Source: an uncultured Romboutsia sp. (GTDB lineage Bacteria > Bacillota > Clostridia > Peptostreptococcales > Peptostreptococcaceae). From it: DNA of 64,000 nt. The DNA lies in contig CAJFPU010000012.1 in NCBI GenBank assembly GCA_904418825.1, positions 1 to 64,000 of the forward strand, in the 5' to 3' direction. A program made the position numbers and the translations under genes. Below the pieces are notes generated by a model, which searched no databases, was not told the DNA's origin, and saw nothing but the letters and a program-made list of their open reading frames with translations. Positions 52,167 through 63,483 of this stretch are shown piece by piece (position 1 is the stretch's first letter; the number at the start of each line of letters is the position of its first letter).

Positions 52167-53687
52167 ATGGAGGTTTTAATTATGCATAGCTTTGTTAAAG
52201 AATCTTGGTATGAAATATTAGTTACCACGATATATATAATCAACTTCTTAGCAATTATAAATTTAATCTTTAGAGAGAAAAGAAGTATCGAAGCTACTGT
52301 CGCTTGGGTTCTTGTTTTAACTACAGCTCCAGCTATAGGTTGTACTACAGCTCCAGCTATAGGTTGTATATTATACATAGCTTTTGGTAGAGGTATTTCT
52401 AAAAATAATATGTTTAAAATAAAAGAAGCTGAAGATAAAATTTTAAAAGAAAATATAATAGATACTCAAATCAAATTAAACCATAATGATAACTTTGAAC
52501 CAGATTTAATTGAGTATAAAGATATGATATATACTTTAGCTAATTCAAATAATTCACATTTTTCAACTAATAATGATGTAGAAATTTTTCCAGAATCAAA
52601 TGATTTCTTTGAATCTTTATTAGAAGAATTAAAGAAAGCTGAACACCATATAAATATACAATTTTACATTTTTAAAGATGATGAAATAGGAAATAAAATA
52701 ATAGATATTTTAATAAATAAAGCTCAAAACGGAGTTAAAGTAAGACTTTTGTATGATGCTGTAGGTAGTAGATTATTCAGTGATAAATCTATTTATAAAC
52801 TTAAAAAAGCAGGTGTAAAAGTAGGCGTATTCTTCCCTTCTTTTATGAAAATTATAAATATAAATCTTAACTATAGAAATCATAGAAAAATAGTTGTAAT
52901 AGATGGAAAAGTCGGCTTTATCGGTGGAAATAACATTGGAGATGAATATCTAGGTAAAAACCCTAAATTTGGATATTGGAGAGATACTCACTTAAAACTT
53001 ACTGGAGATTCTGTAAAGGATCTTAATATAAGATTTATACTTGATTGGAGATATACAACTAAAGAAGACTTAAATTTAGATAAATACTTTAACATTAAAA
53101 GTTCAAGAATCTCTAACTCTAAAGCATGTAAAAATGTCGGCATACAAATAGTATCTAGTGGTCCTGATAGTACCGAGCTAGATGAGATTAAGTATGGTTA
53201 TTTAAAAATGATACAAAAAGCAAAAAAATATATTTATATACAGACACCTTATTTTATTTTAGATAGAACGCTTACAGACACATTAAAAATTGCGTGTTTT
53301 TCAGGAGTTGATGTAAGAATAATGATTCCATCTAAACCTGATCATCCTTTTGTTTATTGGGCATCTTCTTCATATGCAGGTGAACTTCTTAAGTATGGTG
53401 CTAAACTTTATAATTATGATCATAACGCATTTTTACATGCTAAAACTATAGTAGTAGATGACTGTGTATGTTCTATAGGAACTGCAAACATGGATATCAG
53501 AAGTTTTGAACTTAATTTTGAAATAAATGCATTTATGTATTCTTCACAGGTTGCAAAAAAACAAAGGGCTATATTTGAAAATGACATTTTAAAATCTAAA
53601 GAAATAACATTAGATATTTATAATTCTAGATCTCGTCATATGAGAGTTAAAGAATCTATTTCTAGATTACTTTCTCCTATATTATAG
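52167..53687 (+). CDS. cls: Cardiolipin synthase (two PLD motifs)
   Basis: HRKIVVIDGKVGFIGGNNIGDEY and HAKTIVVDDCVCSIGTANMDIRSF HKD motifs. Confidence 0.94.
   Translation: MEVLIMHSFVKESWYEILVTTIYIINFLAIINLIFREKRSIEATVAWVLVLTTAPAIGCTTAPAIGCILYIAFGRGISKNNMFKIKEAEDKILKENIIDTQIKLNHNDNFEPDLIEYKDMIYTLANSNNSHFSTNNDVEIFPESNDFFESLLEELKKAEHHINIQFYIFKDDEIGNKIIDILINKAQNGVKVRLLYDAVGSRLFSDKSIYKLKKAGVKVGVFFPSFMKIININLNYRNHRKIVVIDGKVGFIGGNNIGDEYLGKNPKFGYWRDTHLKLTGDSVKDLNIRFILDWRYTTKEDLNLDKYFNIKSSRISNSKACKNVGIQIVSSGPDSTELDEIKYGYLKMIQKAKKYIYIQTPYFILDRTLTDTLKIACFSGVDVRIMIPSKPDHPFVYWASSSYAGELLKYGAKLYNYDHNAFLHAKTIVVDDCVCSIGTANMDIRSFELNFEINAFMYSSQVAKKQRAIFENDILKSKEITLDIYNSRSRHMRVKESISRLLSPIL
52320..52367 (+). repeat. 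24-bp perfect in-frame tandem duplication inside cls
   Basis: actacagctccagctataggttgt x2, encoding TTAPAIGC-TTAPAIGC. Confidence 0.95.
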
Positions 53688-57260: not shown

Positions 57261-58916
57261 TTATTTATTATTTCCACCATTTATTTGTAACATGAATACA
57301 CTTGCTGCTTCTCTAGTTTTAAATTCTTTGCTATCTTTATATTTATCAACATAATCAGAACTTAGTGCAGCTCTATCTATTTCACCATTTTCATATAAAC
57401 TAACTTCTGCTCCTGTATCTTTAACAACTTTAGTATTTATTTTATTTAATTTAACATTAGCAGCATCCCAATAGTTAGGATTTTTTTCCATTGAGAATTG
57501 GTCTTCCATTTTCCAACTAGTTAAAGTAAATGGTCCATTGTATATTTGCTTATCAGCAGCAGAACCATATGCATCTCCACAAGACTCAACAAATGCTTGG
57601 TTTTGAGGGAAGAATACTTGGAATGACATTAATTCTGCAAAATAAGCTACCGGTCTATTTAATTTAACTTCTAAAGTGTAATCATCTAAAGCTTTTACTC
57701 CTACACCATCTACTCCATTAGCTTCTATCTCTTTTATGCTAGCTCCTACTATATCAGCCATTATATATGAATATTCTGATGCTGTTTCAGGAGTTAAAGT
57801 TCTCTTCCAAGAATATTCAAAATCTTTAGCAGTTACAGGTGTTCCATTTGACCAAGTTGAATTCTTTCTTAGTTTAAATGTCCAAGTTAATCCATCTTCT
57901 GAAACTTCCCAAGATTCAGCTACTCCTGGTTTAACTTTTCCATCTCCATCTATTCTTGTTAAACCTTCCATTGTACTATTCATAGTTTGGAAAGATTGTT
58001 GGTCTGTTGATTTACTTACATCTAAAGACGGTATATCTGATGATGTTGCTAAATTAAGAACTTTATCATCTTTATTTACATCCGCATATGTGTATGTAAA
58101 ATCAGCCCCCCAAGAGTTATTCACTATACCTGATACATAATCTTTTTCTAAGTATGCACCTGCTTTTTGATATATAGGAGCTAAATATCCATCTTCAATC
58201 ATTAATTTTTCTGCTTCTGCATATTTAGCAAATCCTTCTGATGTAGGAAGTTTCATAGCTTCTTCAACTAATTTATTATAATCTTCACTATTATATCCAA
58301 CTTGTTTAGCAAATTGGTTTCCAGTTTGCATTGTTGATAAATATGTTAGTGGATCTGGATAATCTGCTCCCCACCCTGAAAATGCTAAGTCAAATTCTCC
58401 ATTAGTTTCTCTTTCTAGTTTTTGTTCAAACGGTAAATTTGAAACTTTTGCCGTTAATCCTTCTAAATCTCCTAATTCTGATTGTATAAATTCACCAGTT
58501 CTTTTACCTGTATCATGATCAAATGTTAATATTTCTATTTCAACTGTATCAAATCCAACTTCTTCTTTAGCCTTAGCCCAAAGCTCTTTAGCTTTTTCTT
58601 CATTATACTCATAACCCATACCTTTAGTTAAATCTGTATAATCTTTTCCATTATCAAATGCTAATCCTTTTGGTGTAAATGTAGACGTTGGTATTGAACC
58701 ATTATTTAATATAACATCACAATAAGCTTGCTTATCTATTATCATAGATATAGCAGCTCTTGCATTTTTATTGGCAAGTACTTCTGCTGCAGTTGCAGTT
58801 CCTCCACCATTACTTCCTCCATTTGAACTTCCCCCTGAACTACTGCATCCAGCAAGTAAACTTGTGCTTAATAATGCAACTGTTGCCATTACTGTTAATT
58901 TTCTTCTTAAAAACAT
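57261..58916 (-). CDS. Oligopeptide ABC transporter substrate-binding lipoprotein, apparently circularly permuted
   Basis: Lipobox LLAGC; canonical C-terminal half (aa ~46-281) precedes canonical N-terminal half (aa ~283-551). Confidence 0.88.
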   Translation of the reverse strand: MFLRRKLTVMATVALLSTSLLAGCSSSGGSSNGGSNGGGTATAAEVLANKNARAAISMIIDKQAYCDVILNNGSIPTSTFTPKGLAFDNGKDYTDLTKGMGYEYNEEKAKELWAKAKEEVGFDTVEIEILTFDHDTGKRTGEFIQSELGDLEGLTAKVSNLPFEQKLERETNGEFDLAFSGWGADYPDPLTYLSTMQTGNQFAKQVGYNSEDYNKLVEEAMKLPTSEGFAKYAEAEKLMIEDGYLAPIYQKAGAYLEKDYVSGIVNNSWGADFTYTYADVNKDDKVLNLATSSDIPSLDVSKSTDQQSFQTMNSTMEGLTRIDGDGKVKPGVAESWEVSEDGLTWTFKLRKNSTWSNGTPVTAKDFEYSWKRTLTPETASEYSYIMADIVGASIKEIEANGVDGVGVKALDDYTLEVKLNRPVAYFAELMSFQVFFPQNQAFVESCGDAYGSAADKQIYNGPFTLTSWKMEDQFSMEKNPNYWDAANVKLNKINTKVVKDTGAEVSLYENGEIDRAALSSDYVDKYKDSKEFKTREAASVFMLQINGGNNK

Positions 58917-59131: not shown

Positions 59132-59497
59132 ATTGAATTTTTTTATATTCTACTTGCAATTAACTTACTAATTAGTTCATTTTATGATATTATATCAAAA
59201 AATTCTAGTAATTTTGCCTTTATAAATTGTTCTTTTATTATAGGAATGTTCTATTTTCTAGCAGGCGCCTTATGTTATGTGTGGGAAAAAGGATTTTTTA
59301 ATATAACTTTATTTTCATTTAACAAAATAAATAAAGAAATACAAAAAAGAAAGGGATTCTTAATAGATGAATACAATGTTACTTTAGATGATTACATATA
59401 TAAAAAAAATAAATTTTTCTTAACTAATAACTTACTAATCTGTGGAGGATTGATATCAAGTTTGTGTATTATAATAAGTTTTTATACATATAAATAA
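59132..59497 (+). CDS. Small membrane protein, DUF3899-like
   Basis: Frame open from 59132 (ATT) after SD ggggtgag; ORF track starts only at internal ATG 59246. Confidence 0.55.
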   Translation: MEFFYILLAINLLISSFYDIISKNSSNFAFINCSFIIGMFYFLAGALCYVWEKGFFNITLFSFNKINKEIQKRKGFLIDEYNVTLDDYIYKKNKFFLTNNLLICGGLISSLCIIISFYTYK

Positions 59498-59516: not shown

Positions 59517-60458
59517 ATGTTTCGCTATATAATGAAACGTATCAGTTATATGTTTATAACTTTATTTATTGTCATCTCAGTAGTATTCTTTTTAGTTAGA
59601 CTTCTTCCAGGTACTCCATTTAATGAACAAAAACTAAATGCAGAACAAATCGCTCAACTTCAAGCTCAATATGGATTAGATGATCCTGTTCCTGTTCAAT
59701 ATGTAAGGTATTTAACTGGAGTATTCCAAGGTAAATTAGGTATTTCATTTAAACAATCAGGTCAAACTGTTGAGGGTATTATAAAGCTTCGTATAGGACC
59801 ATCTGCTATGCTTGGTGCACAAGCTTTAGTATTAGGTTCAGTTGTTGGACTTATACTAGGTATAATTGCTGCACTTAAAAGAAATTCAATTTGGGATTAT
59901 TTATGTACTATATTATGTGTACTCGGTGTATCTGTTCCATCCTTTGTTGTTGCTGCAACATTACAATTATACTTAGGAGCAAAATTTAAACTTTTCCCAA
60001 TAACTTGGGGTGTTCCATTAGGTTCTGATTTTAGATATATATGGACGATTTTACCATCAATAGCATTATCATTCTTTACTATAGCTAGTGTCGCTCGTTT
60101 CACTAGAACTGAATTAGTTGAAGTTTTAAATTCAGAATATATAGTTACAGCTAAAGCAAAAGGGTTAAGTAAATCTACAGTAATATTAAAACATGCTCTT
60201 AGGAATGCTTTAATACCTGTTATAACTGTTTTAGGACCATTAGCTGCAGGTCTTTTAACTGGTTCATTAGTTGTTGAAAAAGTTTTTGCTGTACCTGGTA
60301 TAGGTGATTTATTAGTTAATGCAATAAATACTAATGACTTATTTATAATTTCAGGTGTAGCTATAGTCTATAGTGCATTCTATATAACAGTTATATTAAT
60401 TGTAGATATACTTTATGGAATTATAGATCCTAGAATACGTTTGACAGGGGGTAATTAA
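59517..60458 (+). CDS. oppB: Oligopeptide ABC transporter permease (OppB/AppB)
   Basis: BPD_transp_1 EAA motif: YIVTAKAKGLSKSTVILKHALRNALIPVITVLG. Confidence 0.93.
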   Translation: MFRYIMKRISYMFITLFIVISVVFFLVRLLPGTPFNEQKLNAEQIAQLQAQYGLDDPVPVQYVRYLTGVFQGKLGISFKQSGQTVEGIIKLRIGPSAMLGAQALVLGSVVGLILGIIAALKRNSIWDYLCTILCVLGVSVPSFVVAATLQLYLGAKFKLFPITWGVPLGSDFRYIWTILPSIALSFFTIASVARFTRTELVEVLNSEYIVTAKAKGLSKSTVILKHALRNALIPVITVLGPLAAGLLTGSLVVEKVFAVPGIGDLLVNAINTNDLFIISGVAIVYSAFYITVILIVDILYGIIDPRIRLTGGN

Positions 60459-60459
60459 G

Positions 60460-61491
60460 ATGTTTGATAAAGTTATGATTGATGGACAACAAGTTGAACT
60501 AACTAAAGATATGTTTGAAATGACTCCTGCAAATTTTGGAGATAATGAAGCTATTTCTAGACCAAGTTTAACTTTTTGGCAAGATGCAAGAAAAAGATTA
60601 TTTAAAAATCCTGGTGCTGTTGCTGGATTAGTAATATTATGTTGTATTATTTTAATGGCAATATTTGCACCTATGTTTTCTAAATTTGATTATAAAACTC
60701 AAAATATAAGACATACAAAAGTTCCACCAAAGATGCCTATAGTCTCTTCTCTAGGCATTATGGATGGAAAAAATTCAGATGGTGTTGATGTGTATGAAGA
60801 AAAAGGAATTGAAGAAACTTATCTATTCGGTACTGATGCTCTAGGTCGTGATATATGGACTCGTACTTGGACTGGTGCAAGAGTTTCTTTATTTATAGCT
60901 CTACTTGCTGCTGTATTTGATCTTCTTATAGGAGTTACATATGGTGGTGTATCTGCTTACTATGGTGGTAGAGTGGATATTATCATGCAGCGTATTATAG
61001 AAATAATATCAGGTATTCCAAGCCTTGTTATTGTTACACTGTTTATAATGGTATTTGAGCCTGGTATTATGTCTATATCTATGGCTATGGCAGTATCTGG
61101 CTGGACTGGAATGGCTAGAATTGTTCGTTCTCATGTATTAAGACTTAAAAATCAAGAATTCGTTTTAGCTTCAAAAACTTTAGGTTCTTCTGATGTTAGA
61201 ATTATACTAAAGCACCTTTTCCCTAATATTGTTGGAAATATAGTTGTTGCAACAATGTTCTCATTACCTAGTGCAATATTCTATGAAGCATTCTTAAGTT
61301 TTATAGGTTTAGGTCTTCAACCACCTTATGCATCTCTTGGAGTTCTTATAAATGAAGGATTCCAAGCATTACAAAACTATCCATATATGATGTTTATACC
61401 ATCTATTGTAGTTTGTTTATTAATATTCAGTTTAAACTTACTAGCAGATGGTCTAAGAGATGCTGTTGACCCTAAAATGCGTAATCAATAA
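60460..61491 (+). CDS. oppC: Oligopeptide ABC transporter permease (OppC/AppC)
   Basis: FVLASKTLGSSDVRIILKHLFPN; GTDALGRDIWTRTWTGARVSL. Confidence 0.93.
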   Translation: MFDKVMIDGQQVELTKDMFEMTPANFGDNEAISRPSLTFWQDARKRLFKNPGAVAGLVILCCIILMAIFAPMFSKFDYKTQNIRHTKVPPKMPIVSSLGIMDGKNSDGVDVYEEKGIEETYLFGTDALGRDIWTRTWTGARVSLFIALLAAVFDLLIGVTYGGVSAYYGGRVDIIMQRIIEIISGIPSLVIVTLFIMVFEPGIMSISMAMAVSGWTGMARIVRSHVLRLKNQEFVLASKTLGSSDVRIILKHLFPNIVGNIVVATMFSLPSAIFYEAFLSFIGLGLQPPYASLGVLINEGFQALQNYPYMMFIPSIVVCLLIFSLNLLADGLRDAVDPKMRNQ

Positions 61492-61511: not shown

Positions 61512-62537
61512 TTGGAAAAATTACTTGAGGTAAAAAATTTATGTGTTAATTTTGGTACTTACGGTGGAGAGGTTCAAGCTGTAAGAGGAGTTACATTCGA
61601 TTTACATAAAGGAGAAACACTAGCTATAGTTGGTGAATCTGGTTCTGGTAAATCTGTTGCTTGTAAAACTATAATGAGAATACTTTCATCAAATGGATAT
61701 ATAAAAAATGGTCAAATATTATTTGATGGTAAAGATTTAACTAAAATAAGTGAAAAAGATATGGAAAAAGTTAGAGGTAAAGATATTGCAATGATATTCC
61801 AGGACCCTATGACTTCTCTAAATCCTACTATGACTATAGGGAAACAAATAATGGAACCTATTATAAAGCATCAAGGCTTTAGTAAAGAAGATGCTAAAAA
61901 AAGAGCAATAGAACTTATTGAATTAGTTGGAATATCTGATGCAGAAAAAAGATTTAAGCAATATCCCCATCAATTTTCTGGTGGTATGAGACAACGTATT
62001 GTAATAGCTATATCTTTGGCTTGTAACCCAAAAGTATTAATTGCCGATGAACCTACTACTGCTCTTGATGTTACAATTCAAGCTCAAATATTAGAACTTA
62101 TAAAAGATTTACAAGAAAAAACTGGTGTAGCAGTTATCTTCATAACTCATGACCTTGGAGTAGTTGCTAATGTGGCTGATAGAGTTGCAGTTATGTATGC
62201 TGGAAAAATTATAGAATACGGAACTTCTGATGATATATTCTATGACCCTAAACATCCTTATACTTGGGGACTTTTAGGATCAATGCCTACATTAGACATA
62301 TGAGATAATGATTTATATAATATACCTGGAACACCTCCAGACTTAATGAATCCACCTAAAGGAGATGCATTTGCACTTCGTAGTGCATATGCTATGAAAC
62401 TAGATCATTTAGTAGAACCTCCTATGTTCAAGGTTAGTGATACTCACTATGCTGCTACATGGCTTTTACATCCATTGGCTCCGAAAGTTGAGAAACCTAT
62501 AAACATAGGAAGAAAGATGGTGAATATAAATGAGTAG
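61512..62537 (+). pseudogene. oppD: Oligopeptide ABC transporter ATP-binding protein (OppD/AppD), interrupted by in-frame TGA at 62301-62303
   Basis: TTG start; full ATPase domain to LLGSMPTLDI*; same frame continues DNDLYNIPGTPPDLMNPPKGDAFALRSAYAMKLDHLVEPP... to 62537. Confidence 0.85.
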
Positions 62538-63483
62538 AAAAATATTATTAGAAGTTAAAAATTTAAAGCAATACTTTCCTTTAGGTAGAAAAGGTGTTGT
62601 AAAAGCAATAGATGATGTATCTTTTCATATATATGAAGGTGAAACATTTGGATTAGTTGGAGAATCTGGTTCTGGTAAATCTACTACTGGACGAACTATA
62701 ATACGCTTATATAACCCAACTAGCGGGGAAGTTATATTTGATGATAAAGTAATATCTCATAAAAAACTTCCTAAAGATGATAAATTATATGTTAATAAAA
62801 ATATGCAAATGATATTTCAAGATCCAATGGCATGTTTAAATCCACGTATGACTGTTATGGACATAATAGCCGAAGGTCTAGATATACACGGTATATATAA
62901 AACTAAAGAAGAAAGAACTAAGAGAGTCTATGAATTATTAAAAACTGTTGGACTTAATGAACAGCACGCTAATCGATATCCACATGAATTCTCTGGTGGC
63001 CAAAGACAACGTATAGGTATTGCTCGTGCATTAGCTGTTGAGCCTAAGTTTATAATAGCTGATGAACCTATTTCAGCTCTTGATGTTTCTATACAAGCTC
63101 AAGTTGTTAATCTTCTTAGAAAATTACAAAAAGAAAATGGTCTTACATACTTATTTATAGCTCATGACCTTTCAATGGTTAAGTATATAAGTGATCGTAT
63201 AGGTGTTATGTATAAGGGTAAATTAGTTGAATTAGCATCTTCAGATGATTTATATGAAAATCCACTACATCCTTATACTAAATCACTTTTATCAGCTATA
63301 CCTCTTCCAGATCCTGATTATGAAAAAACTAGAAAACGTATAAAATATAACCCTAGTATTCATAACTATTCTACTGAAAGTCCTGAGTGGATTGAAATAA
63401 GACCTGGTCATTTTATATATGCATCTAAATCAGAGTTAATTAATTATGAAAAAGAATTAAGTGCTAATGAATCAAATGCTTAA
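62530..63483 (+). CDS. oppF: Oligopeptide ABC transporter ATP-binding protein (OppF/AppF)
   Basis: GESGSGKSTTGRTIIRL, FSGGQRQRIGIARAL, HPYTKSLLSAIP. Confidence 0.94.
   Translation: MSRKILLEVKNLKQYFPLGRKGVVKAIDDVSFHIYEGETFGLVGESGSGKSTTGRTIIRLYNPTSGEVIFDDKVISHKKLPKDDKLYVNKNMQMIFQDPMACLNPRMTVMDIIAEGLDIHGIYKTKEERTKRVYELLKTVGLNEQHANRYPHEFSGGQRQRIGIARALAVEPKFIIADEPISALDVSIQAQVVNLLRKLQKENGLTYLFIAHDLSMVKYISDRIGVMYKGKLVELASSDDLYENPLHPYTKSLLSAIPLPDPDYEKTRKRIKYNPSIHNYSTESPEWIEIRPGHFIYASKSELINYEKELSANESNA

Follow-up and report, generated by a model that had tools for sequence, protein, structure and literature searches.

The window, by which we mean the whole stretch of 64,000 nucleotides analysed here, comes from a gut bacterium and carries a gene for an OppA-like cluster C lipoprotein (SBP) whose two halves stand in reversed order, C-terminal half before N-terminal half, with the cut at the first lobe-to-lobe crossover. 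The initial annotation of this DNA had proposed an OppA-type lipoprotein that is circularly permuted and has its anchor relocated to an inter-lobe crossover, and this is supported by the sequence and its relatives, by synteny and trees, and by the predicted structure. The gene product is very probably a membrane-anchored peptide-binding protein of cluster C (OppA/DppA), permuted at the first of the two inter-lobe crossovers. At least five independent permutations were found in the SBP_bac_5 family.

Swapped order of the homologous segments

PF00496 (SBP_bac_5) was the single Pfam family found, with 281.5 bits distributed over two stretches, as was expected for a permuted protein. The best stretch aligns residues 327-547 with positions 1-208 of the profile. 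With phmmer, the window SBP matched solved OppA proteins strongly in two segments that do not overlap and whose order is swapped. For the B. anthracis protein (6npo), query residues 285-546 match chain residues 34-296 (E 3e-69) and residues 47-281 match 306-544 (E 6e-41), and for the L. monocytogenes protein (5kzt) residues 283-546 match 13-278 and residues 45-278 match 286-524. Expressed in 5kzt numbering, the QIN at residue 546 falls on 278 and the VLANKN at residue 46 on 287, so the present C-terminus joins the present N-terminus in the canonical order.

Since homology to PF00496 spans both lobes, the protein belongs with cluster C by homology. Its C half precedes its N half, at variance with the canonical N-to-C domain order I-II-I-III-I, and this reversal makes it a circularly permuted relative rather than a canonical member of the cluster. 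A continuous colinear full-length SBP_bac_5 alignment had been named beforehand as evidence that would speak against a permutation; no colinear full-length match of the window SBP to canonical SBP_bac_5 or OppA proteins was found. NCBIfam gave only sub-threshold scores, far below the equivalog cut-offs, and Pfam gives the ordinary family name, so that permutants can pass as plain OppA and their topology be overlooked.

The coordinates are listed in Table 1. The signal peptide and the lipobox cysteine identify the product as a bacterial lipoprotein, and Cys24 is invariant in 26 permuted homologues. Signal peptide, lipobox and linker are N-terminal as in ordinary SBP lipoproteins; what follows the linker is the canonically C-terminal segment, and the canonically N-terminal one comes second. 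Residues 46-281 comprise lobe 2 (domain III) and the C-terminal part of domain I, including the motif GWGADYPDP. At the new junction the old termini are fused directly, without an added linker, and residues 282-547 stop just past the crossover strand from lobe 1 to lobe 2 (VFMLQIN). The OppA proteins 6npo and 5kzt thus share with the window SBP homology of both halves over their length, the lipoprotein anchor and the adjoining oppBCDF genes, but differ from it in the order of the halves, in the position of the termini, which in the window SBP lie at the crossover from lobe 1 to lobe 2, and in the fusion of the old termini.

Table 1. Positions of the permuted gene, its parts and its neighbours in the window, with members of two further permuted groups
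Feature	Position	Strand	Remarks
Permuted OppA-like SBP gene	57261..58916	-	551 aa; ORF, Pfam, phmmer
Signal peptide, lipobox (LLAGC, Cys24) and Ser/Gly-rich linker	58782..58916	-	residues 1-45
Canonical C-terminal half, now first	58074..58781	-	residues 46-281; homology to solved OppA
New junction, old C-terminus/old N-terminus (TYADVN/KDDKVL)	58059..58088	-	about residues 277-286
Canonical N-terminal half, now second	57276..58073	-	residues 282-547; homology to solved OppA
DUF3899 small membrane protein	59246..59497	+	syntenic across genera; between permuted SBP and oppB
oppB permease	59517..60458	+	divergent from SBP gene; conserved neighbour
oppC permease	60460..61491	+	conserved synteny
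oppD ATPase	61512..62303	+	in-frame stop in this assembly
oppF ATPase	62530..63483	+	conserved synteny
P2 members	L163-L165, L168, L200, L202, L206-L208, L210, L211		OppA-like SBPs
P3 examples	L041:5782-7488, L039:5183-6964	+	DppA/HbpA-like SBP

Predicted structure and binding site

AlphaFold2 was run on the native permuted order with an input alignment of permuted relatives only. The fold was confident (pLDDT 89.0, pTM 0.83), with pLDDT 95-96 at the new junction and 96-98 at the new N-terminus; residues 1-37 have low pLDDT, and a strand is predicted at 532-545. Foldseek, which aligns in chain order, matched no more than about 250 columns of OppA structures (rmsd 1.4-2.0, TM about 0.44), with 41-46% identity to 6npo and 5kzt in the half that was aligned. 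A colinear match that covers only about half of the protein is the signature expected from a permuted fold.

In cluster C, lobe 1 is made of domain I (in three pieces) and domain II, while lobe 2 is domain III; the domains of AliD cover residues 29-63, 191-296 and 583-617 (I), 64-190 (II) and 297-582 (III) (PMC11192437). Two strands make up the inter-lobe hinge in EppA (PMC7312458). The OppA domain boundaries used for placing the cut in the window SBP were mapped approximately, via homologues. A cut at the first crossover from lobe 1 to lobe 2 means that lobe 2 would come first in the mature chain, where the lipid tether ends, and that, within the approximate boundary mapping, only the second lobe connection would stay covalent. 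The chain would run from lipid anchor and linker through lobe 2 (domain III) and the C-terminal part of domain I to the fusion of the old termini, and then through the rest of lobe 1. Each lobe would be less broken up along the chain, and the cut would open one covalent hinge strand out of two, the lipid tether starting at that point; we infer these effects on hinge and tether from the position of the cut.

The peptide-amine-site motif GWxxDYxDP is retained as GWGADYPDP, and its W182, D185 and D188 do not vary among 26 homologues. In domain III of pneumococcal AliD, W498 and D501 bind the N-terminus of the peptide (PMC11192437), and by homology with these two residues GWGADYPDP is a putative peptide-amine site.

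Opp locus and distribution of the permuted order

The gene order uvrA-oppFDCB-DUF3899-SBP-uvrC-hprK is kept across many of the carrier genera, and in some cases a second permuted SBP stands in tandem with the first; the linkage of the SBP gene to oppBCDF is that of a component of an OppABCDF importer. Fold, motif, lipobox, selection and linkage point to peptide capture for OppBCDF: the permuted SBP most likely still shuts on oligopeptides in the manner of a Venus fly-trap, and it would hand them to the neighbouring importer.

Elsewhere in the window, a cardiolipin-synthase-like gene (52167-53687, forward strand) contains TTAPAIGC twice, as a short direct repeat that stays in frame.

The R. timonensis orthologue has the same permuted order at 91% identity, and the order was also found in R. 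sedimentorum, R. maritimum and further named records, which were checked half by half. Permuted full-length copies are present in 20 of the 72 genomes and 10 of the 23 genera of Peptostreptococcaceae, several genomes having three or more paralogues, and an order-level survey counting full-length matches gave 29 of 298 genomes from three families. The permutation goes back to the ancestor of a clade that spans several genera and has paralogues, and it is not peculiar to this gene or genome. One locus from a distant family (L153, G186:C13:51510-59330) carries a run of four permuted SBP genes, which suggests tandem amplification after the permutation.

As to the origin, the initial annotation had suggested tandem duplication followed by truncation. 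According to general models of permutation, tandem copies would have been fused in frame and the outer halves then lost. An origin from fused tandem copies with trimming is plausible because tandem SBPs are common in these genomes, but no fused N-C-N-C or partial-repeat intermediates were found among the ORFs of the fetched loci. Of the suggestion, the permutation itself is borne out and the duplication step stays at the level of plausibility.

Repeated permutation in the family

Proteins were de-permuted by segment profiles before the trees were calculated, and the groups were named by type of cut before the trees were seen. The canonical order is near-universal in the SBP family and was for this reason taken as ancestral. 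There are at least five independent permutations in the SBP_bac_5 family (P1-A, P1-B, P2, P2-L168 and P3), using three distinct cut sites: P1 at the lobe crossover (two events), P2 in lobe 2 (two events) and P3 in lobe 1 (one event).

P1-A is the clade of the window SBP and is placed near canonical OppA of Bacilli. Its monophyly appears in the best tree with weak support (78/83; 96/89 with fewer rows). P1-B (A3; L155-L161, families f2 and f12) is cut as P1-A is, yet it is nested among other canonical proteins, and of the solved structures B. subtilis OppA 8are is the closest to it. P2 is cut inside lobe 2, between residues 364 and 367 of 8are (about 366 in 5kzt). If L168 is set aside, the remaining P2 may form one clade (p 0.36); the L168 event is represented by one genome. 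A P2 clade consisting of L200, L202, L206, L208 and L211 has a signal peptide without a lipobox. The P2 model reached pLDDT 79 and pTM 0.76 from a thin alignment. P3 comes from Acidimicrobiia MAGs; its cut lies within lobe 1 (between residues 120 and 128 of 3m8u), and it is nearest to DppA/HbpA. It occurs in 50 of the 138 genomes of one Acidimicrobiia order, with a full-length match in most of these 50; in P3 the permuted SBP sequence comes after a lipobox and a Thr-rich linker, and oppB/oppC/oppD-like genes adjoin.

Comparison with known systems

A lipoprotein SBP that is naturally permuted and serves an ABC importer has been described in MglB-2 (Tp0684) of T. pallidum, for which the class 'Type Ic / Cluster Bc' was proposed; relatives of MglB-2 are found both in Gram-positives and in treponemes and are mostly tethered (PMC4990184). 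MglB-2 and the window SBP have in common the natural circular permutation and the lipoprotein of an ABC importer. MglB-2 differs in its Type I/cluster B sugar-binding fold, where N-terminal strands have moved to the C-terminal end and a fourth crossover has been added. The window SBP, although permuted, falls outside 'Cluster Bc', as its best matches in both structure and sequence are cluster C OppA proteins. In the domain-swapped dimer of pneumococcal AliC (8qlh, PMC11192437) the connection between lobe 1 and lobe 2 is opened by 3D domain swap around residues 290-294. Unlike the window SBP, AliC has the canonical sequence order, and the correspondence of its loop to our cut is approximate and inferred. 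No permutants of cluster C or OppA in print were found in the open-licence literature, where cluster B MglB-2 was the only case, which is weak evidence of absence. Natural SBP permutation is known from cluster B, and its recurrence in cluster C is without a precedent found in that literature.

Alternative explanations

One further reading would add to a working, permuted OppA-like SBP rather than replace it, namely that the permutation was adaptive: moving the tether off lobe 1 and opening a hinge strand would have altered opening, closing or docking to OppBC. We regard this as possible but doubtful. The same crossover was hit in two independent clades, most permutants are lipoproteins, and the authors of the MglB-2 study suggested tethering as a driver (PMC4990184). 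On the other hand, one P2 clade has no lipobox, the P2 and P3 cuts leave the lobe crossover intact, and neutral tolerance of permutation would equally yield recurrence.

It is very unlikely that the gene is a decaying or non-functional relic, although two observations at the locus lean that way. The oppD gene of the window (61512-62530, forward strand) has one in-frame stop after 263 codons, while the R. timonensis gene is intact with 341 aa; the importer of this strain may be impaired, or the stop may be an assembly error. Moreover, two genomes of the same genus (L130 in G002 and L131 in G001) have lost oppBCDF and the SBP gene between uvrA and uvrC, and keep a degraded 3' SBP remnant just upstream of uvrC. 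The remnant ends at the permuted C-terminus, so their ancestor was already permuted. Against decay, the comparison of the window SBP with that of R. timonensis gave dN 0.045 and dS 0.37 (dN/dS about 0.12), and constraint acts on the junction as well as on both halves; the lipid-bearing cysteine and the binding-site residues are invariant over the 26 diverse homologues, and paralogues have expanded in several genera.

A single ancient permutation scattered by transfer is highly improbable. The P1-A and P1-B cuts do agree to within a few residues, but placing all P1 in one clade was rejected (AU p about 1e-58), as was placing all P2 in one clade (AU p 6e-46, with the four P2 then known). The N-half and C-half trees each separate P1-B and set it among other canonical proteins, and P2 and P3 are cut elsewhere.

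An assembly artefact, for which the tandem SBP paralogues of relatives could be cited, would have merged a tandem pair of SBP genes, by collapse or as a chimera, in a draft of 177 contigs and 83.5% completeness (G000, the genome of the window). It is ruled out, because independent isolates and nearly closed genomes among the 20 carriers show the same permuted order, as do unrelated assemblies in one or few contigs (G053, G033, G030, G059), and the gene is under purifying selection.

Significance

Natural circular permutations have usually been reported as single curiosities, and here at least five are found in one of the commonest families of bacterial import proteins. For SBP-based biosensors, the permuted sites amount to a catalogue of positions at which a cut is tolerated. 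For the family itself, the recurrence amounts to a natural experiment that asks whether SBP function depends on the order of the chain, the continuity of the hinge and the position of the tether, and it raises the question of why these SBPs tolerate or favour re-cutting. As a tentative answer, to which we give less credence than to its opposite, cluster C SBPs may be a permutation hot spot because re-cutting the hinge or relocating the tether would selectably alter closing or docking to the importer.
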